From Chloroflexota bacterium (GTDB taxonomy: Bacteria; Chloroflexota; UBA11872; VXOZ01), in contig JAAXIC010000025.1 of the NCBI GenBank assembly GCA_012270555.1, forward strand, positions 1 to 56,902: a stretch of DNA of 56,902 nucleotides. The letters are read 5' to 3'. The notes under the pieces were generated by a model, which was not told the DNA's origin, did not search any database, and saw only the letters and a list, made by a program, of their open reading frames with translations. Position numbers and translations under genes: made by a program. The stretch's first letter is position 1. The number at the start of each line of letters is the position of its first letter. Shown piece by piece: positions 484-35,156 of the stretch.

Positions 484-2463
484 GTGGTTAGATCATTGTG
501 GATGAGAGCGGCCATTTTCTTGGTCGCCATTCTCGCGGCTATTGCGCTGGCGTCGTGCGCTCAGGAGGCGCCGGCCGCGCCGGAGGCCATGCCGGAGCAA
601 GAAGCCGTGGAAGCGCCGGAGGAGATGGGCCCGTCGGTCTACCGCATGGGCATCTTTGAAGAACCTATTTCGCGCAATTACTGGAATTACTACGGCGGCC
701 CCGGCGGCTCGGTGTGGACGCAATACGTCCTGAGCGGTTGGACCGGCGCGCTCTACGGCTACTCGGACCAGAACTTCGAGTGGGTCCCGAGCTTGGCGGC
801 GGACTTCCCCACGGACCTCGCGAAAGAGACCGTGGACGGCACTGAGTACTGGACTACCGAGGTGCCAATCAGACAGGGCATCATGTGGAGCGACGGCGAG
901 GAGCTTAATGCGGACGACATCATCTTCACCGCGCACACCGTGCTCGAGATGGGCATCAGCGGTAACTTTGGCGCCGTGGTCGACCCCGCTTTCCTCGACC
1001 GCATCGAGGCCATCGACAGCCATCGCATCAAGATTTTCTTCAAGGCGGCCGACGCCGAGGGCAATCCCCAGACGCCCGGCCTGAGCATCTGGCAATTCGG
1101 CCTCGCCTTCATGCCGATTCTGCCCGAGCACTACTGGGCTCCCGTGGTGGCAGAGGCCAAGCAGGCCGGCGAACCGGAAGCACAAATCGAGGCGCTGATG
1201 GCGCACGTGCCTGAGAACGACCCCACCCTGGGCGGCTTCACGTTCGGCAAGTGGGAACCGGGCGCCTTCTTCGAGAACAGCCGGGCGGACAACTACTACG
1301 CCACCGGCTCCGTGATTACGCGGTATGCCAGCGGCGTCTTGCAGGAAGTCAACGAGCGGCTGGGCTACACCGCCACGTACTTCGGCGAGCCTGGCGGTGA
1401 CAAGGAATTGGAGTACACGGTTGGCCCCCACGTGGACTCCGCTCTCTTCAGCATCTATGGCAACCAGGATGCCGCCATCTTGGCACTAACCAAAGGCGAC
1501 ATTGACTACGTCTTCAATCCCCTGGGTCTGGAGAAGGGCTTCCGCGAGCGTATTCAAGCGGCGGGCGACCTGGAAATCGTCTCCAATCTGGACAACGGCA
1601 TGTTCTATCTGGGCTTCAACGTGCGTAAGGAGCCCATGAGCATCCGTGAGTTCCGGCAAGCGGTGGCGATCATGATCGACAAGGAGTTTGTGACCCAGAC
1701 TGTGCTGCAGGGCGCGGCCATTCCTGCCTATTCCATGGTGCCGTCCGGCAACGCGGCCTGGTTCAACGCCGATACGGCCAAGATCGGCCAGGGCCTGACC
1801 AGAGGCGAGCGGTTGACGCAAGCCGTTGAATTGCTCAAGAGCGCCGGCTTTACCTATGAGGAAGAGCCGGAGATTAGCGAGGACGGCAACTTCGTGGCCA
1901 AGGCGGGCAAGGGTCTCAAAATGCCCGACGGCTCGGACGTGCCGGCTTTGACAATCATCGCGCCCAGCGCGGGTTACGATCCGCTGCGCGCCACGTTCGC
2001 CATCTGGATCGAGCGCTGGTTGAATGACGTCGGCATTCCGGTGCGCGCCAACCTGACCGGCTTCAACGTCATCGTGGGCGTGCTGTTCAGCGAGACCGTG
2101 CAAGAAGACCTTGACATGTGGATCCTGGGTTGGAGCTTGAGCCTCTTCCCGGACTACTTGGAGACCTTCTTTAACGGCCGCCGCGCGCCGGAGAACGAGG
2201 GCGGCTACAACTGGGGCGGCTACGCCAATCCCGAGTTCGACGCAATCTCGTTCAGCCTGCTCTCCGAGACTACCATCGAGGGGGCGCGCGACAAGGTATT
2301 CCAATTACAGGAATTCCTTGCCGAAGACCTGCCCTATGTGACGCTTTTCACCATTCCGAAGTTGGATTCCTACCGGCCATCCAGTGTCGACTTCCCGTAC
2401 ACTGAGGTCCTGGGCGGCTTGGAAGGTGTGGGCGGCATGCAGACGGCAGTGCAAGTAAAGTAA
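484..2463 (+). CDS. ABC transporter substrate-binding lipoprotein, family 5 (peptide/nickel type)
   Basis: This is a 659-residue extracytoplasmic solute-binding protein of the DppA/OppA type (SBP_bac_5) that should deliver oligopeptides or similar solutes to the importer encoded just downstream. The GTG start is chosen because GGGAGG at 471-476 sits 7 bases upstream. A hydrophobic signal (residues 9-23) ends in the lipobox LASC, with Cys25 as the lipidation site, followed by an Ala/Pro/Glu-rich linker to about residue 50. The rest has the typical length and composition of the family. It is separated from the permease genes by 487 bases that contain a hairpin and a second promoter, so the binding protein can be expressed independently of the membrane components. 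The substrate cannot be read from the sequence. Confidence 0.9.
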   Translation: MVRSLWMRAAIFLVAILAAIALASCAQEAPAAPEAMPEQEAVEAPEEMGPSVYRMGIFEEPISRNYWNYYGGPGGSVWTQYVLSGWTGALYGYSDQNFEWVPSLAADFPTDLAKETVDGTEYWTTEVPIRQGIMWSDGEELNADDIIFTAHTVLEMGISGNFGAVVDPAFLDRIEAIDSHRIKIFFKAADAEGNPQTPGLSIWQFGLAFMPILPEHYWAPVVAEAKQAGEPEAQIEALMAHVPENDPTLGGFTFGKWEPGAFFENSRADNYYATGSVITRYASGVLQEVNERLGYTATYFGEPGGDKELEYTVGPHVDSALFSIYGNQDAAILALTKGDIDYVFNPLGLEKGFRERIQAAGDLEIVSNLDNGMFYLGFNVRKEPMSIREFRQAVAIMIDKEFVTQTVLQGAAIPAYSMVPSGNAAWFNADTAKIGQGLTRGERLTQAVELLKSAGFTYEEEPEISEDGNFVAKAGKGLKMPDGSDVPALTIIAPSAGYDPLRATFAIWIERWLNDVGIPVRANLTGFNVIVGVLFSETVQEDLDMWILGWSLSLFPDYLETFFNGRRAPENEGGYNWGGYANPEFDAISFSLLSETTIEGARDKVFQLQEFLAEDLPYVTLFTIPKLDSYRPSSVDFPYTEVLGGLEGVGGMQTAVQVK

Positions 2464-2950: not shown

Positions 2951-4099
2951 ATGGCTCGCTATCTCATTAGCAGAACGCTGCAGATTCTGCTGACGCTGTT
3001 CGCGTTCATTTGCATTGTCTACTTCATCGTCAATGCGCAGCCGGGCGACATCAGCAACGTGTATGCGATGAATCCCGAATTGCCGCCGGACGCCCGGGAG
3101 CGGCTGCAAAACCAGTTTGGGCTCAACGAGCCGCTTTGGAAGCAATTCCTCGTATACGTGAGAAACGTCTTTACCGGCAGTTTCGGCGTATCGTTCAGCT
3201 TTTATCCCCGCACCGTCGCAGACGTCATTGCCGAGCGCCTGCCGCGCACGGTGGCGCTCTTCTTCACCGCCACGGTGTTTTCGTTCTACCTGGGATTTCT
3301 CTTGGGCAAGATCATTGCCTGGCGTCGTGGCGGCTGGACCGAGTACGCAACCACCATTGGCGGCGTGACGCTCTACACGGTCTTCACGCCCTGGTTCGCT
3401 CTCATGATGATCTGGCTCTTCGCCTTCAAGGCGGGGTGGTTTCCCATCGGCAAGTTCCTCGACCCCGTTCTCTGGCGAGATGCCCCGATTGAAGCGAACA
3501 CGCTGTTCGGCCGCATGATGCTCACAGCGCTGGCGCTTTCCATCGTCGTATTCGTCGTCTTTGTCATAACCACGCGGCTCCGTATCGCGGGGGCGCGGCT
3601 CATCCAACTTGGCAGCATCGTGGCCAGCGTGGCTGTGATGCTCGGAGCCTGGCGGCTGACGGGTCACGGTCATCTTGCCTGGGACATCGTCAAGCACATG
3701 GTCTTGCCGGTGCTCACGCTGACCCTTATTAGCTTTGCCGGCACCATGTTGCTCACGCGCAACAGCATGCTGGAGACGATGCGTGAGGACTTCGTGCTGG
3801 CGGCCCGCGCCAAGGGCCTGCCGGAAAAGGCCGTGCGGGATAAACACGTGGCGCGGAACGCTTTGCTTCCGGTGGTGACCAGCCTCGTCTTCAGCCTGGC
3901 GTTTGCCGTGGACGGCGGAGTCATCATCGAGTCGGTCTTCTCGTGGCCCGGCATGGGGCAGACATTGGTGTCGGCAGCGGTAGCGGAAGACTTGCCCTTA
4001 GCGGTCGGCGCGTTCGTGTTCGTAGGCATCTTCGTTTTGCTCGCCCACCTGGCGGTAGACGTGATTTACGTCTTCTTGGACCCAAGGATTAGGTATTAG
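2951..4099 (+). CDS. ABC transporter permease, DppB type
   Basis: This 382-residue inner-membrane permease belongs to the binding-protein-dependent dipeptide/oligopeptide/nickel importers. It begins with the family signature MARYLISRTLQILLTL and has an N-terminal transmembrane helix, a periplasmic loop, then the BPD_transp_1 helices. The coupling region facing the ATPases is visible around residues 270-290 (EDFVLAARAKGLPE, followed by RNALLPVVTS). AAGGGGTGG lies upstream of the ATG. The product is longer than many DppB proteins (about 310-340) because of an extra hydrophobic stretch around residues 185-235. Its TAG stop overlaps the next gene's GTG by one base, so the two are translationally coupled. 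Confidence 0.93.
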   Translation: MARYLISRTLQILLTLFAFICIVYFIVNAQPGDISNVYAMNPELPPDARERLQNQFGLNEPLWKQFLVYVRNVFTGSFGVSFSFYPRTVADVIAERLPRTVALFFTATVFSFYLGFLLGKIIAWRRGGWTEYATTIGGVTLYTVFTPWFALMMIWLFAFKAGWFPIGKFLDPVLWRDAPIEANTLFGRMMLTALALSIVVFVVFVITTRLRIAGARLIQLGSIVASVAVMLGAWRLTGHGHLAWDIVKHMVLPVLTLTLISFAGTMLLTRNSMLETMREDFVLAARAKGLPEKAVRDKHVARNALLPVVTSLVFSLAFAVDGGVIIESVFSWPGMGQTLVSAAVAEDLPLAVGAFVFVGIFVLLAHLAVDVIYVFLDPRIRY

Positions 4100-9798: not shown

Positions 9799-10158
9799 TT
9801 CTCCTTTGGTTCAACATTCTGCGTTGCACAATTCCGTGGCTTGCTGCGGGCAAAGACCCGCCTGATTCTCTTGATCTAAGAGGCGGGGAACAAGCCCCCG
9901 CGCTACAAGGAGTGTGCCTGACCGGAATTCTCTGTGGGCCTAACATCGGGCTTACCACCACGCCCTCTTCTCCGCTCCGGTAGCACAGGTTTGCAACCTG
10001 TGCCCGACAACATGGGGCGGCGCTTCGCGGAAAACCCGGCCTGTAGACGGACAGTGGAACCAACCGCCTCACCTCATTCCTGAAGGTATCGCGCTACGTG
10101 CACCAGGATTGGCTGGACTAGTCTCGTCCGCACGCTCAATGTTTGCCCAGCACCTATT
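9799..10158. other. Intergenic region with two repeat families
   Basis: No gene seen. A GCGGGG-CAAGCCCCCGCGCTAC repeat lies at 9880-9906 and a GCACAGGTTTGCAACCTGTGC palindrome at 9979-10005. Similar elements recur throughout the window. Confidence 0.6.
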
Positions 10159-13963: not shown

Positions 13964-14066
13964 GGGATACCTCATTTCTCTTGTCTGGCAGTTTTCTTGA
14001 CCTGTATCTATGATACGTATTCCGGAGGCAGAGCCACAAGTTGCCGCGCCTGTTGGGCGGTTTCTG

Positions 14067-14092
14067 TAGGGGCACGATATATCGTGCCCCTA
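14067..14092. repeat. 26-bp palindromic repeat, copy 2
   Basis: Perfect palindrome with arm TAGGGGCACGATA, 13 bases past the end of hisD, where it could end or protect the minus-strand transcript. Copies at 2555-2580 and 26050-26075. Confidence 0.85.
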
Positions 14093-14105
14093 CGCCGAAA
14101 GGCGT

Positions 14106-17832: not shown

Positions 17833-17859
17833 GCGCAGGTTACAAACCTGCGCTACCGG
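17833..17859. repeat. GCGCAGGTTACAAACCTGCGC palindrome
   Basis: This is a copy of the GCAGGTTTGCAACCTGC-type element that recurs at 9979-10005, 19007-19036, 26235-26280 (interrupted), 41447-41474 and 56870-56891. Confidence 0.8.
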
Positions 17860-18978: not shown

Positions 18979-19259
18979 GCAAGTGAGACTGGCCGGTTTC
19001 GCAAGCGGCGCAGGTTGCAAACCTGCGCTACCGGGGACGCGGGGCGCGGTGCTTTTTGTGATGGTGTCCAATGCGACGACATTGGGGTGCCCCTCACCCA
19101 AGCCCTCGCCCTCACCCTAACCCTCTCCCCCAGGAGAGGGAATCACTCGCCTTTGGGGAGGGAGCTGCTCATCTTGGAGAAAGGGAACTGTTCGCCTTGG
19201 GAAAGCGGGCTGTTAAAGCAGATGAATGCCTAGCTTTGAAAACAAGGAGTAAATGAGCT
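18979..19259. other. Spacer with three repeat types
   Basis: It contains the GCAGGTTGCAAACCTGC palindrome (19007-19036), a TGCGACGACATTGGGG motif (19072-19087) and a CCCTCTCCCCCAGGAGAGGG palindrome (19121-19140). I see no gene and no clear promoter. Confidence 0.65.
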
Positions 19260-26015: not shown

Positions 26016-26049
26016 GTTCTTCTTGCCCCCCTATGTTAGGTCAGCATCG

Positions 26050-26075
26050 TAGGGGCACAACATGTCGTGCCCCTA
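26050..26075. repeat. 26-bp palindromic repeat, copy 3
   Basis: The right arm is identical to the copies at 2555 and 14067, while the left arm carries two changes (TAGGGGCACAAC), so the palindrome is imperfect here. Confidence 0.8.
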
Positions 26076-26234
26076 CCTCCTGCAAACAGCCGGTATCCGC
26101 TTGCGTAATTCCCATGCAAACCGGATTCTAGCTTCGCGACGCGTGCGAATCCGTAAACCATGCCCGTTCCCTTGTGTGCCTTGACGAGTCTAGCGGTGAT
26201 TACCATGAACATAGACGGTTCAGGTGATTTCGCT

Positions 26235-30367: not shown

Positions 30368-32320
30368 ATGAGCGCGACCGATCACTACACGGACGAGTGG
30401 ACGCCGCTTAATCCAGTAATTTTGGAGGCCCACCGCCCGCGGTCTGATGCAGTTGTGGCAGCGGCCTGCTTGCCAGAACAGGCAGCAGTGGGTTCGTGGC
30501 AGTGTGTGGCGATGCGCCTGAGACTCGGCGCGGAAGGGCTGAGGCAAGGCGACGTGCTCGTGGTGCAGTCCGTGACGCGGGGCTTGCAGTCGTGGCCCGC
30601 ATTGCAGACCGTCATGACTGCGGAAGCGGGATACACAACTGCTGCGGCGGAATCTGGAGAGCTGGTAACGTGTCAAGTGGACGGCCAACACGTACGCCTG
30701 ACCGTCCGGGATTCCCTTCCCGCCGGGGATACCATCGTTCTCACCTACGGCGACCGGCGCGCCGGAGGGCCGGGCAGTCGCATGACCCTGGCCGCCCTCC
30801 GCCAGTGGTTCCGCATTCTCCACGTGCCACAGGACGGAATCGGCGCGCACGAAGTGATTGCTGAGCCGCCGTACGTTGACCTCCTGCCGGCCCCGCCAGC
30901 ACAATTGGACGTCTTGGCGCCAAGCCGCGTGCGGCGGGGCGAACAATATACCCTCGTCGTCAAAGCGGTGGACGAACATGGCAATACTGCCGCGTCGCTG
31001 GCTCAACCCGCGACGATTTCTTCGGTGAACGGGGCTGAGTTCCCTGCCGAAATAGCGCTAAACGAACGTGAACGCGCTGCCGGGCGCGCAATGGTTATCC
31101 TGACTGAAAACATGCCGCCTACCGGGCGGCTGCGTCTCGTGGTACGCCATCCAGAAGGGGAAGCGGTGGGACGCAGCAACCCCGTGGAAGTAGTACCAGT
31201 CGACGACGCTTCCGATACCATCTATTGGGGCGATTTACACGCGCACACGTCCCACGGGCACGCGTATGGCGAGATCGCAGACCTTTACCACTACGCTCGC
31301 GATGAAGCCAGGCTCGACTTTGTGGCACACGTGGAGCACTACACCTGCGCCGGAGAGTGGTTGCATCCGTGGTGGCGGCGGCGCTATCCGGAATGTCAAA
31401 CAGTCACGGACTTCGTCGAGCGCTCCTGGCAGGAGCGGTTGGAGCAAGCGCGGCGGTTCGACACGCCGGGCCGGTTCGTACCGTTGCTGGGGTTCGAGTG
31501 GGCGCACACTACGGGACACCTCAACGGCTTTTTCCCGGGACTAGATGCGCCGCTCGTCTATCCCACGAGCTTTCGCGACCCGGCCATGACCCCCGCTCAT
31601 CTCAAAGAGCTACTCGCAGGCCACGAATGGTTCGGCGTGCCCCACCACACGGCCTTCCCGCTGGGTCGAGGCACACTGGGCGGGTTCCGCTGGGAGCACT
31701 TCGATCCGGAGACCATGCCCTGCGTGGAGATCGCGTCCAAGCAGGGGAATGGCGAATACTTCGGCGCGCCCTACGCGGCGTTGCCTATGGGTAGGGGCGG
31801 CACCGTGCGCGAGGGGCTGGCCCGCGGCTTGCGCTTTGGCTTCGTGGGCGCGACCGATACGAACATCGCGCGGCCGGGCTCGTTCACGGCCCAGGAGAAG
31901 CGCCAGCGGCTGCCGGGGTTGACCGCCGTGTTCGCGCCCTCACTGGAACGCGAGGCAATCTACAACGCAATTCGGCAGCGGCGCTGCTACGCGACGTTGG
32001 GTGGCAGACCCATCCTGCGCTTCAGCATCAACGGCGCTTTCATGGGCGAGTCGCTGCGACTGCCGCGCGCCGACGCCGTCAAGCACATCGTCTGCGACGT
32101 GGCCGGATCCGCAGAACTCGCGCGCGTGGAAGTCATCAAAAACGGAAAAACGTCCTTCCAGTTCGTAACCACAGACACCGGCACCCACAACCGCACCCCC
32201 GACTACCGCGAAGAATTCCCCGATACGACCCCCAGCCAAGCAGGCGACTACTACTATTTGCGCGTCCAGCAGTGCGACGGCGCGCTCGCCTGGTCCAGCC
32301 CGATTTGGATCGATCTCTAA
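30368..32320 (+). CDS. DUF3604/PHP-like metal-dependent protein
   Basis: This 650-residue protein carries, around residue 285, the sequence YWGDLHAHTSHGHAYG, the HxH metal motif of PHP-type phosphoesterases and of DUF3604. It continues with DFVAHVEHY, GFEWAHTTGHLNGFFP and GVPHHTAFPLGRG, further candidate metal ligands. The N-terminal 280 residues are beta-rich (a bacterial Ig-like or C2-like module is likely, as in VLAPSRVRRGEQYTLVVKAVDEHGN). A C-terminal beta domain closes the protein. No signal peptide is seen. Substrates of DUF3604 are not established. It follows the hydrolase by 100 bases. Confidence 0.82.
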   Translation: MSATDHYTDEWTPLNPVILEAHRPRSDAVVAAACLPEQAAVGSWQCVAMRLRLGAEGLRQGDVLVVQSVTRGLQSWPALQTVMTAEAGYTTAAAESGELVTCQVDGQHVRLTVRDSLPAGDTIVLTYGDRRAGGPGSRMTLAALRQWFRILHVPQDGIGAHEVIAEPPYVDLLPAPPAQLDVLAPSRVRRGEQYTLVVKAVDEHGNTAASLAQPATISSVNGAEFPAEIALNERERAAGRAMVILTENMPPTGRLRLVVRHPEGEAVGRSNPVEVVPVDDASDTIYWGDLHAHTSHGHAYGEIADLYHYARDEARLDFVAHVEHYTCAGEWLHPWWRRRYPECQTVTDFVERSWQERLEQARRFDTPGRFVPLLGFEWAHTTGHLNGFFPGLDAPLVYPTSFRDPAMTPAHLKELLAGHEWFGVPHHTAFPLGRGTLGGFRWEHFDPETMPCVEIASKQGNGEYFGAPYAALPMGRGGTVREGLARGLRFGFVGATDTNIARPGSFTAQEKRQRLPGLTAVFAPSLEREAIYNAIRQRRCYATLGGRPILRFSINGAFMGESLRLPRADAVKHIVCDVAGSAELARVEVIKNGKTSFQFVTTDTGTHNRTPDYREEFPDTTPSQAGDYYYLRVQQCDGALAWSSPIWIDL

Positions 32321-32389
32321 AGTAGATTAATCTCAGGAATGACACTAGAGTTGATTGAAGAGCCTCTATAGATGCCTATGGAGGATTCC

Positions 32390-32407
32390 ATGGTAGCAGG
32401 CAGTTAG
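32390..32407 (+). CDS. Five-codon mini-gene (MVAGS) ahead of the endonuclease gene
   Basis: ATG at 32390 is preceded by TGGAGG and 5 bases, the only good ribosome binding site in the region, but reads MVAGS and stops at 32405-32407. Two bases later a TTG (32410) opens the endonuclease frame and an ATG (32425) follows. It could be a leader that couples or limits translation of the endonuclease. Confidence 0.4.
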   Translation: MVAGS

Positions 32408-32424
32408 ATTTGCGTGTTGCTCTG

Positions 32425-33030
32425 ATGCCGATCAAGCGAAACACAGTAGACGTCGCTAAGTTCAATCGACATGGACACCTGCCGTATGATTTGCGCCTTC
32501 AGGACTTTCAGATGGCCATGCAGGATGTCTATGATTTCTTGTATGACGTCAATTCTCATCTTAGCGGGAGAGGATTGCAGCGACTCGACGACATGTTGCG
32601 CCCCGCCATCCTTTCGGGCGTCCTGTCTGACATGCTGACGGCCAGTCTCGCCAAACACTCCCGAGTGCTTACGGAAAACCAGTACCACAATGGACACCCG
32701 GACCTCGTTGTCCAAGGAGTCTATCCCAACAATGCAGTCAAGGCAGGCACTGAGGGTGTCGAGGTAAAGACAACCCGGAAGGCTGGGGGAGCCGTGGATA
32801 CACATGGAGCGCGCGAGCAGTGGATGTGCGTTTTCGTCTATCGCGTAGACGTGGAATCAGAGCCTGCGATTGAGCGGGAGCCTATGGCTTTTACCGAGGT
32901 TTATCTTGGGCACGTCAAGATAGAGGACTTTCGCAAGAATCCTCGTAGTGAGCTTGGCACTAGAACCGCGACACTCCATAGGGACGGCATTCAAAAGCTT
33001 CGCGAGAGTTGGGTCTACCGCGTGGACTGA
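32425..33030 (+). CDS. Type II restriction endonuclease, PD-(D/E)XK fold
   Basis: This 201-residue protein has the nuclease core Asp93 (HPDLVVQGVY) and Glu113/Lys115 (GVEVKTTRKAGG). An N-terminal helical segment (LQDFQMAMQDVYDFLYDVN) probably serves dimerisation or DNA binding. The identification is based on the core motif and on the facing methyltransferase gene. The ATG at 32425 has no ribosome binding site; TTG at 32410, just after a mini-gene stop, is a real alternative. Its 3' end overlaps that of the methyltransferase gene by 16 bases. I cannot assign a recognition sequence. The gene appears more AT-rich than its surroundings. Confidence 0.78.
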   Translation: MPIKRNTVDVAKFNRHGHLPYDLRLQDFQMAMQDVYDFLYDVNSHLSGRGLQRLDDMLRPAILSGVLSDMLTASLAKHSRVLTENQYHNGHPDLVVQGVYPNNAVKAGTEGVEVKTTRKAGGAVDTHGAREQWMCVFVYRVDVESEPAIEREPMAFTEVYLGHVKIEDFRKNPRSELGTRTATLHRDGIQKLRESWVYRVD

Positions 33031-34172
33031 CTCCCGTTCGGAGAGAATTGGATCAGCTTCGGAATCGCAGCGGTAGCCATCTCGAAGTAGCGTTCGTCCT
33101 TTTCCACCCCAACGCTCGCATAGCCTACGGCTTCTGCGGCAGCCAAGGTTGAACCTGCGCCAGCGAACGGATCCAGGATGATTCCTTCTCCCAGCGGCAA
33201 GACCGAACGCACAAGTTGACGCAAAAATGACTGTGGCTTCAGGCTTGGGTGCGGCGCCAAGTCGCGTTCGGCCTTCCTGGTGGGCGAGGAAGGAATGACG
33301 TCGCCAAATGGCTTTTCTTGAGACGGTCGGCGGAATCCGCCGGCCTTCCACTGCCGCAAATTATCTTGAACTCTGCCTTCGATGGGCTTCCGGTACACAA
33401 GCCATGGTTCCCACATGGAACGTGGCATCACGCTTACTTCGGAGAACTCATCGTGGGCCGCTTTGGGACGGTCGCCGCCCCGCATCGTCATGGTGAGCCG
33501 CACAATTTCCCCTCGTCGTTCCAGTCCGGCCTCCGCTAGCGCCGCAGACACCAAATAGGAAACAAGAGGGTTTGAAGCCACGATGACATGGGCTCCCGGA
33601 ACGAGCCTTGGTAACAATAGACGAGCCCACACAAAGAAGAAGGCACGGATGTGGTTAAGCTGAGTGTCGGTCAAAGTAGTAAACCGGGGCACAGGGGAGC
33701 GCGCATGACCGTCAAAAGACGGCGGGATCCGCCAGACGCCACCCCTTCCCTCACGCAGCTTGGCTTGCTGCTCGTCCGTATACTCGTGGAGTCCGTACGG
33801 CGGATCCGTAATGACTGCATGAATGCTGTTTGCAGGTTGTTGCTCCAGCCAGTCGAAGCAGTCAGCGTGAAAGAGAGTTGCGCGGCCAAAAGAGACTGGG
33901 GCTTGGGACGCCTCCATTGGAGGCATCGGTCGCTGTATTGTCGACGCCGAATCTTGACGAAGCGTGTACACCCCCCGTTCTTCTCGCGTGAACAACTGTG
34001 GCGTGTTCAAGCGAAGATAGGATCGAACAGAGGATTCCTTTACCGGCCCAACGACCTGAGAGACTCGGTCACCAATCTCCTTGGCTGTTAGACCCTTTGA
34101 GGTAAACGACATCACTTGAAAGATGCCGTCCCGGACTCGTCCCGGTGCTCTCCTGCTCTGACTATCTTCCAT
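33015..34172 (-). CDS. DNA methyltransferase with N-terminal HTH-like extension
   Basis: This 385-residue protein is a beta-class N6-adenine or N4-cytosine DNA methyltransferase: the catalytic DPPY (residues 123-126) precedes the S-adenosylmethionine motif DPFAGAGST (334-342). Residues 1-75 form an extra domain (SKGLTAKEIGDRVSQVVGP, then SSVRSYLRL and EERGVYTL) that resembles a winged helix-turn-helix. The promoter overlaps a perfect palindrome (34188-34203), so autoregulation via this extension is plausible. The ATG at 34172 lies only a few bases after the predicted transcription start. The convergent partner at 32425-33030 is the cognate nuclease by position. Confidence 0.9.
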   Translation of the reverse strand: MEDSQSRRAPGRVRDGIFQVMSFTSKGLTAKEIGDRVSQVVGPVKESSVRSYLRLNTPQLFTREERGVYTLRQDSASTIQRPMPPMEASQAPVSFGRATLFHADCFDWLEQQPANSIHAVITDPPYGLHEYTDEQQAKLREGRGGVWRIPPSFDGHARSPVPRFTTLTDTQLNHIRAFFFVWARLLLPRLVPGAHVIVASNPLVSYLVSAALAEAGLERRGEIVRLTMTMRGGDRPKAAHDEFSEVSVMPRSMWEPWLVYRKPIEGRVQDNLRQWKAGGFRRPSQEKPFGDVIPSSPTRKAERDLAPHPSLKPQSFLRQLVRSVLPLGEGIILDPFAGAGSTLAAAEAVGYASVGVEKDERYFEMATAAIPKLIQFSPNGSQSTR

Positions 34173-34182
34173 GGTAAGAGCA

Positions 34183-34211
34183 AGTATAGACGTCTGGACG
34201 TCTTAAGTCAA
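34183..34211 (-). promoter_or_regulatory. Methyltransferase promoter with embedded operator
   Basis: On the minus strand, TTGACT (34206-34211) and TATACT (34183-34188) are 17 bases apart. Between them lies AGACGTC-TG-GACGTCT (34188-34203), a perfect inverted repeat with a 2-base spacer. Transcription would start at about 34176, leaving a leader of about 4 bases. Confidence 0.7.
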
Positions 34212-34265
34212 GCGACAACTGTTACTTTTTTCGGTTCCCTGGGGCACGAATTATGCGAGACTTGA

Positions 34266-35156
34266 TCAAGGAATTACCACGAACGTTTCCAACGCCACGA
34301 AGACGAAGAACACCGCCGAGAGGGAGCTATTCACGTGAAAGAAGGCGGTGTTGATGCGGGAGAGATCGCGGGGATTCACGAGCAGGTGTTCCCAGATGAG
34401 CAATCCCGCCACGGCCGCGATGCCGAGCCAGTAGAAGAGGCCGAGACCGAGCAGTACGCCTACTGCCGCGAGGCACAGCGCGGTCGCCACGTGCGCTAGG
34501 GCGGAGAAGATCAGCGCGCCGCGTATGCCGAACCTCGCGGGGACGGAGTAGAGGCCCTCCTTCAGGTCGACCTCGTAGTCCTGGCAGGCGTAGATCATGT
34601 CAAAACCCGCCATCCAGGTCACGACTGCCGCGCCGAGCAGCACCGTGCTCCAGGCGAATTCACCCGTAACCGCGATCCAGCCGCCCATGGGCGCCATTGA
34701 GCCGGAGACGCCGAGCGCAAAATGGCTGAGCCACGTGAAGCGCTTCGTATAGGAGTAGAACACCAGCCAGAAGATTGCGATTGGCGAAAGCAGTACGCAT
34801 AGCCAATTGAGCATGGCCGCCGCAAAAACCATGAGCGCCAGGTTGAAGATGCTCGCTCCCCACATGAACTGCGGCGTGAGTATGCCTTGCGGCAGCGCGC
34901 GTATGGACGTGCGGGGATTGCGGCTGTCCAGGTGGCGGTCAATGATGCGGTTGAGAGACATAGCGGCGGTGCGGCCGGCAGTCATGGCTACCGTAACCCA
35001 GATGAACTGCCACCACGTGGGCAGACCCTCCGCGGCCAGCAGCATGGCGAGATAGGCGAACGGCAGGGTGAAGGCCGCGTGTTCGATCTTGATGGCTTCC
35101 AGGAACACCGGCACCTTGCGGATGACGGATCCCATGGACGTTGACGTCGCGCTCAT
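34266..35156 (-). CDS. mqnP: UbiA-family prenyltransferase, MqnP type
   Basis: This 296-residue membrane enzyme transfers a prenyl chain to an aromatic acid in quinone synthesis. The N-terminal KIEHAAFTLPFAYLAML is characteristic of MqnP, the prenyltransferase of the futalosine route to menaquinone. The Mg-diphosphate motifs are NRIIDRHLDSRNPRT (first Asp-rich) and DMIYACQDYEVD (second). Eight to nine hydrophobic segments follow UbiA topology. AGGA lies 5 bases before the ATG. It ends an operon with a TlpA-type protein and an M55-like gene. No other mqn gene is within the window, so the pathway assignment depends on family resemblance. Confidence 0.88.
   Translation of the reverse strand: MSATSTSMGSVIRKVPVFLEAIKIEHAAFTLPFAYLAMLLAAEGLPTWWQFIWVTVAMTAGRTAAMSLNRIIDRHLDSRNPRTSIRALPQGILTPQFMWGASIFNLALMVFAAAMLNWLCVLLSPIAIFWLVFYSYTKRFTWLSHFALGVSGSMAPMGGWIAVTGEFAWSTVLLGAAVVTWMAGFDMIYACQDYEVDLKEGLYSVPARFGIRGALIFSALAHVATALCLAAVGVLLGLGLFYWLGIAAVAGLLIWEHLLVNPRDLSRINTAFFHVNSSLSAVFFVFVALETFVVIP

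Follow-up and report, generated by a model that had tools for sequence, protein, structure and literature searches.

The methyltransferase locus of this Chloroflexota contig raises the question of whether a palindrome situated within the gene's own promoter is an operator, and whether the reader of that operator is the N-terminal domain of the methyltransferase itself. The locus lies in a window of 56,902 nucleotides, which is the whole stretch of DNA that was analysed. Comparison with relatives points to an affirmative answer: the 14 bp element is very probably the operator of a self-regulating beta-class methyltransferase that has a built-in autorepressor.

At the promoter level, the minus strand displays a −35 hexamer TTGACT (34211–34206) and a −10 hexamer TATACT (34188–34183) that are exactly 17 nt apart, as described in the initial annotation. 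In a scan of positions 32300–34400, this pair is the top sigma-70-like match, at 10/12 (2 matches versus 0.9 expected in shuffled sequences), and no other good sigma-70-like promoter was found near the methyltransferase gene. The sequence AGACGTC-TG-GACGTCT forms a perfect inverted repeat at 34188–34203. It had been described as filling the spacer. This holds for the operator core, which is entirely within the 17 nt spacer at 34189–34202, but at one end the extended palindrome runs one base into the −10 box, sharing the final T of that hexamer. Toward the −35 box, 2–3 spacer bases are left free. The core reads GACGTC-TG-GACGTC on the plus strand and GACGTC-CA-GACGTC on the minus strand. As GACGTC is itself palindromic, the operator is a direct and an inverted repeat at once. 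The methyltransferase ATG (34172–34170) is 10 nt past the −10 box, i.e. ∼3–4 nt past the transcription start typically expected from such a box, and no Shine–Dalgarno sequence precedes it. This geometry agrees with the earlier proposal of an almost leaderless transcript that lacks a ribosome binding site.

The gene (33015–34172, minus strand) encodes a beta-class amino DNA methyltransferase of 385 amino acids, with matches to Pfam N6_N4_Mtase (2.4e-15) and PADLOC MTase_II (6e-111); its nearest fold is that of CcrM (6pbd). The catalytic domain is encoded at about 33057–33884 (minus strand), with a DPPY motif at residues 123–126 and motif I, DPFAGAGS, at residues 334–341. A gene on the plus strand (32425–33030) encodes a restriction endonuclease with the PD-(D/E)XK motif HPD93...E113-V-K115, numbered from the ATG at 32425; the entry in the open reading frame list begins at an upstream TTG, 32410. 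The endonuclease is 64–90% identical in relatives and its catalytic residues HPD...E-x-K are invariant. Its AlphaFold2 model has a pLDDT of 86, and the top 30 Foldseek matches are all restriction endonucleases, with EcoRV and NaeI the best, followed by BglI and SfiI (probability up to 1.00, with modest E-values of about 2e-3). The partner of the methyltransferase is thus an endonuclease with a predicted EcoRV/NaeI-like fold. An MTase_II-type methyltransferase and an adjoining PD-(D/E)XK gene together constitute a type II restriction-modification system, and the two genes are tail-to-tail, so that the beta-class enzyme of a convergent system proposed initially is indeed present. The 3′ ends overlap by 16 bp (33015–33030), which leaves no room for a terminator between the genes; overlap or abutment tail-to-tail is also found in relatives. 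The endonuclease is essentially full-length in 54 loci. At some 20 further loci it is missing or disrupted, and these still keep the operator. The target of control therefore appears to be the methyltransferase itself. No operator is found upstream of the endonuclease gene, and control of the endonuclease through an operator of its own was rejected on these grounds.

At the protein level, residues 1–75 (33948–34172, minus strand) had been suggested to act as an autorepressor that reads the palindrome, and in the AlphaFold2 model they form a predicted winged helix-turn-helix (wHTH). The order of elements over residues 12–71 is helix-helix-helix-strand-strand (helices 12–22, 30–41 and 46–56; strands 61–64 and 68–71), and the model has moderate confidence in this region (pLDDT about 71–83). 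The predicted recognition helix is helix 3 (residues 46–56, SSVRSYLRLN) and the predicted wing spans residues 61–71. Among relatives, the recognition helix motif SS[V/I]RSYL is invariant, as are residues P10, G11, R14, D15, S47, S48, R50, S51, Y52, L53, L55, N56, F61, G67 and Y69 of the domain. Searches of Pfam and the PDB with the wHTH sequence gave no significant match.

A scan of GTDB genomes yielded 80 relatives, 79 of which have upstream DNA; the contig of the eightieth starts inside the gene. The relatives are labelled as Chloroflexota, Acidobacteriota, Verrucomicrobiota, Planctomycetota, Nitrospirota, Pseudomonadota, Myxococcota, Thermodesulfobacteriota, Gemmatimonadota, Hydrogenedentota, Sumerlaeota, Methylomirabilota, Kiritimatiellota, Lentisphaerota and Bacillota. 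The initial annotation had suggested a search for the palindrome upstream of relatives with the same N-terminal extension, and GACGTC-NN-GACGTC is present between the −35 and −10 boxes in all 79, which span more than 12 phyla. Across a non-redundant set of 75 upstream regions, each of the 12 operator columns carries 2.0 bits, versus about 0.0–0.2 bits in the flanks, and only the two-nucleotide centre varies. Outside the operator, only TTGAC, found at the same column in about 62–70 of the 75, and TAnnnT of the −10 box stand out, and the rest is near random. The spacer is exactly 17 nt in 66 of the 79 relatives and 16–18 nt in 78. The start codon is 12–16 nt past the operator in most members, or 6–10 nt past the −10 box, and a leaderless or near-leaderless transcript would thus be a trait of the family.

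The operator also appears to be private to this system. When 400 Chloroflexota genomes were searched for the pattern of −35 box plus operator alone, 13 sites were found and 12 of these are directly upstream of a wHTH-methyltransferase gene. Copies of the operator number one per genome in 16 of 25 genomes, two in eight and three in one, which indicates a dedicated operator and not a regulon. A second copy is present in the genome of the window (C42:14836), within overlapping predicted open reading frames of 192 and 218 amino acids. The operator and wHTH-methyltransferase gene are carried on chromosomes, on plasmids and on two contigs of a viral collection (L251 and L255). These two are the only ones among 21 operator-like stretches found by pattern in viral contigs that precede a wHTH-methyltransferase gene, and the others look like chance occurrences. 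The version on a Klebsiella plasmid has no matches in E. coli genomes at megablast sensitivity.

Loci in which the two domains are separate, or in which one is absent, reveal which of them the operator accompanies. The wHTH is a separate small gene in five loci, those of Gordonia (L093, L094), Iamia (L095), Mycobacterium avium (L096) and a Chloroflexota genome (L116). In all five the operator precedes the wHTH gene, at 220–300 bp from the methyltransferase start. Methyltransferases that are 48–54% identical and have no wHTH are found on an Acidiphilium plasmid (L097), in a Halorubrum virus (L098) and at three other loci (L132–L134), and none has the operator upstream. These five are only distantly related, sit on long branches, and are too few to make a strong contrast by themselves. 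In a catalytic-domain tree, which is unrooted and has long branches, the wHTH-less enzymes fall outside one well supported group to which every fused or split form belongs. Within it, the split forms are interspersed with fused ones, which suggests that fission or fusion occurred more than once. A further locus (L118, 1476–1831) has two tandem wHTH relatives, with the operator a short distance before the leading one, and no methyltransferase is found before the contig ends. Further loci with a strong wHTH match likewise have the palindrome, and the operator is thus upstream of all wHTH enzymes examined but one. The exception (L131, genome G462) has one intact half-site, GACGTC-CT-GGCTCT, in a 17 nt spacer. 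It is the sole wHTH member seen with a decayed operator and represents a natural half-site mutant. The proposal that the N-terminal domain reads the operator is supported in that the operator follows the wHTH, and not the methyltransferase domain, when the genes are separate or the wHTH is absent.

Two neighbouring arrangements were also observed. On the Microvirga plasmid pMVF16-3 (L088, ∼1100–1300, minus strand), a second, divergent wHTH relative without a methyltransferase domain adjoins the fused gene. On the Acidiphilium plasmid pACMV5 (L097), a separate helix-turn-helix regulator gene (3192–3413) adjoins the endonuclease gene, suggesting that the control module has been replaced in this wHTH-less version.

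Could the two GACGTC sites instead be methylation targets, with the promoter shut by their methylation, as reported for CfrBI, and not by binding of the wHTH? Each half-site is a 6 bp palindrome, as type II targets tend to be, two copies are in the methyltransferase promoter, and in fused proteins conservation alone cannot separate the two domains. But where the wHTH gene is split off the operator accompanies it, and where the wHTH is missing so is the operator. Control by methylation also needs no pair of sites at an exact 2 bp spacing, and there is only about one such pair per genome. Counts of k-mers over about 2.5 Mb, drawn both from carriers of the system and from genomes that lack it, further show that GACGTC has an observed/expected ratio of 0.68–1.08 in genomes with both methyltransferase and endonuclease, mid-rank among palindromic hexamers. 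As GACGTC is not specially avoided, this gives no support to its being a methylation target, and it was rejected as the restriction target. Such a role is unlikely, and the operator and the methylation site are probably different sequences. In the same counts, CAGCTG is tenfold depleted in the genome of the window (G000, 0.4 Mb sampled; 5 seen versus 54.6 expected). It was not adopted as the target, as it is also depleted in a genome of the same genus that lacks the system and in unrelated Pseudomonadota; another selective force or restriction-modification system may be behind the depletion.

If the wHTH does read the operator, it might activate the promoter, or act as an activator-repressor switch in the manner of C proteins. 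The −10 boxes of relatives are moderate (mean match 4.0/6), which leaves room for activation, and C proteins are known to control the timing of restriction-modification systems, some with leaderless transcripts (PMC2997769, PMC5333194). Against this, the operator is between the −35 and −10 boxes, the −35 box is near-consensus (mean 5.3/6), and there is neither a second upstream operator nor one at the endonuclease gene. A 17 nt spacer, the length in most relatives, fits a repressor and not a MerR-type activator. Activation is therefore judged improbable, and the standard spacer together with a strong core promoter argues for repression. Less likely still is a separate host or phage regulator that reads the operator while the N-terminal domain serves DNA methylation only. 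Binding of the operator by this domain is predicted from sequence, which leaves room for another reader; however, the element occurs only with the wHTH, and it is invariant in many phyla and on chromosomes, plasmids and the two viral-collection contigs, which makes a common host regulator implausible. As to chance, the window has ∼100 perfect inverted repeats with arms of at least 7, partly nested, dozens of which are equal to or longer than the palindrome, and the palindrome alone is thus not improbable. Its significance stems from its conservation in relatives, and with 79 of 79 conserved at base-pair resolution, a functionless coincidence has a negligible probability.

Other repeats are present in the window. 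Near-identical 28 bp perfect or near-perfect palindromes, GTAGGGGCAC...GTGCCCCTAC, are found at 2554–2581, 14066–14093 and 26049–26076 and are either copies of a dispersed repeat or the termini of small mobile elements. Three similar 21 bp hairpins, GC(A/G)CAGGTT-nnn-AACCTG(C/T)GC, are at 9983–10003, 17833–17853 and 19008–19028. They may be recurring terminators or a further small element of the dispersed kind.

In the preferred reading, autorepression by the methyltransferase, the system would work as follows. When the system enters a new host, its methyltransferase gene would fire at once from the consensus-like sigma-70 promoter, yielding a leaderless or near-leaderless mRNA, and host DNA would become protected. 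As the enzyme accumulates, its wHTH domains would bind GACGTC-NN-GACGTC and exclude RNA polymerase from the methyltransferase promoter. Either one dimer or two could occupy the operator, since each half-site is itself a palindrome. Autorepression would then keep the amount of methyltransferase low and steady. The endonuclease gene would be transcribed tail-to-tail with it, from a promoter of its own that has no operator. With less transcription of the methyltransferase gene, the endonuclease gene may suffer less interference from antisense transcription or collision, and restriction may in this way be delayed until modification is complete. Timing of the endonuclease in this manner is plausible from the overlap of the convergent genes.

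That a methyltransferase can be its own repressor is already known for C5 enzymes. In the M.SsoII/M.Ecl18kI/M.EcoRII type, an N-terminal domain of ∼70 residues binds an inverted repeat in the enzyme's own promoter (PMC3978073, PMC3695355). In M.SsoII, the regulatory site bound by this domain differs from the methylation site, and the domain represses the methyltransferase gene and indirectly favours the endonuclease (PMC3978073). M.SsoII methylates cytosine at C5; the phage 434 repressor served as the model for its N-terminal region, and the endonuclease promoter is stimulated indirectly (PMC3978073, PMC3695355). The present enzyme resembles it in having a predicted N-terminal helix-turn-helix fused to the methyltransferase and an inverted repeat in its own promoter, autorepression being proposed here from sequence. 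However, it is an amino-methyltransferase of the N6_N4_Mtase class, and hence not of the M.SsoII/M.EcoRII family by descent. Its predicted domain is a wHTH and not a 434 repressor-like helix-turn-helix, its convergent endonuclease gene has an overlapping 3′ end and no operator, and it differs further in an operator kept across many phyla and in the version with a separate wHTH gene. CcrM and M.RsrI, beta-class N6-adenine enzymes, share the catalytic fold and the order of DPPY before motif I, and are the nearest PDB matches, but these reference chains are unmatched over the first ∼90 residues of the present methyltransferase.

The C-protein systems PvuII, AhdI, Esp1396I and Kpn2I have a small regulator dedicated to one restriction-modification system, with a convergent layout in several (PMC2997769, PMC5333194, PMC6237814), and the regulator transcript is leaderless in PvuII and AhdI (PMC2997769, PMC5333194). 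C proteins are separate helix-turn-helix regulators, usually co-transcribed with the endonuclease gene, that act on paired C-boxes (PMC2997769, PMC5333194, PMC6237814). The present family would share with them a dedicated DNA-binding regulator, a convergent layout and a leaderless or near-leaderless start, but its regulator is fused to the methyltransferase or stands before it, as do the five separate wHTH genes, which do not precede the endonuclease gene, and there is a single operator, in the methyltransferase promoter. In CfrBI-type systems, control is reported to be by methylation of promoter sites (reference 174 cited in PMC3874152). Palindromic sites in the promoter region are common to both, but the site here goes with the DNA-binding domain and not the catalytic domain, and there is no sign that GACGTC is methylated. 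In the literature searched, with REBASE and most subscription journals outside its scope, no description of the wHTH-methyltransferase family was found; neither were the catalytic class, predicted fold, convergent layout, operator sequence, cross-phylum conservation and split version as traits of an autorepressor.

A broader proposal, offered tentatively and with somewhat less than even confidence, is that the module is a host-independent switch. The wHTH and its 14 bp operator would have stayed matched through moves between more than 12 phyla, with the domain either fused or separate, and methyltransferase autorepression would time the endonuclease by relief of interference. Host-specific signals would not be needed by such a switch, because its promoter would be a generic sigma-70 one and its mRNA leaderless.

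The findings provide a sequence-level rule for one widespread restriction-modification family, in which operator, reader and promoter geometry are predictable from sequence. Autorepression, known from cytosine-C5 methyltransferases of the M.SsoII kind, would be extended to beta-class amino-methyltransferases whose DNA-binding domain has another fold. Since the same protein-operator pair is found in very different phyla, the safe expression of a mobile restriction-modification system in a new host becomes directly testable, and the operator and wHTH may serve as a broad-host-range repressor part.
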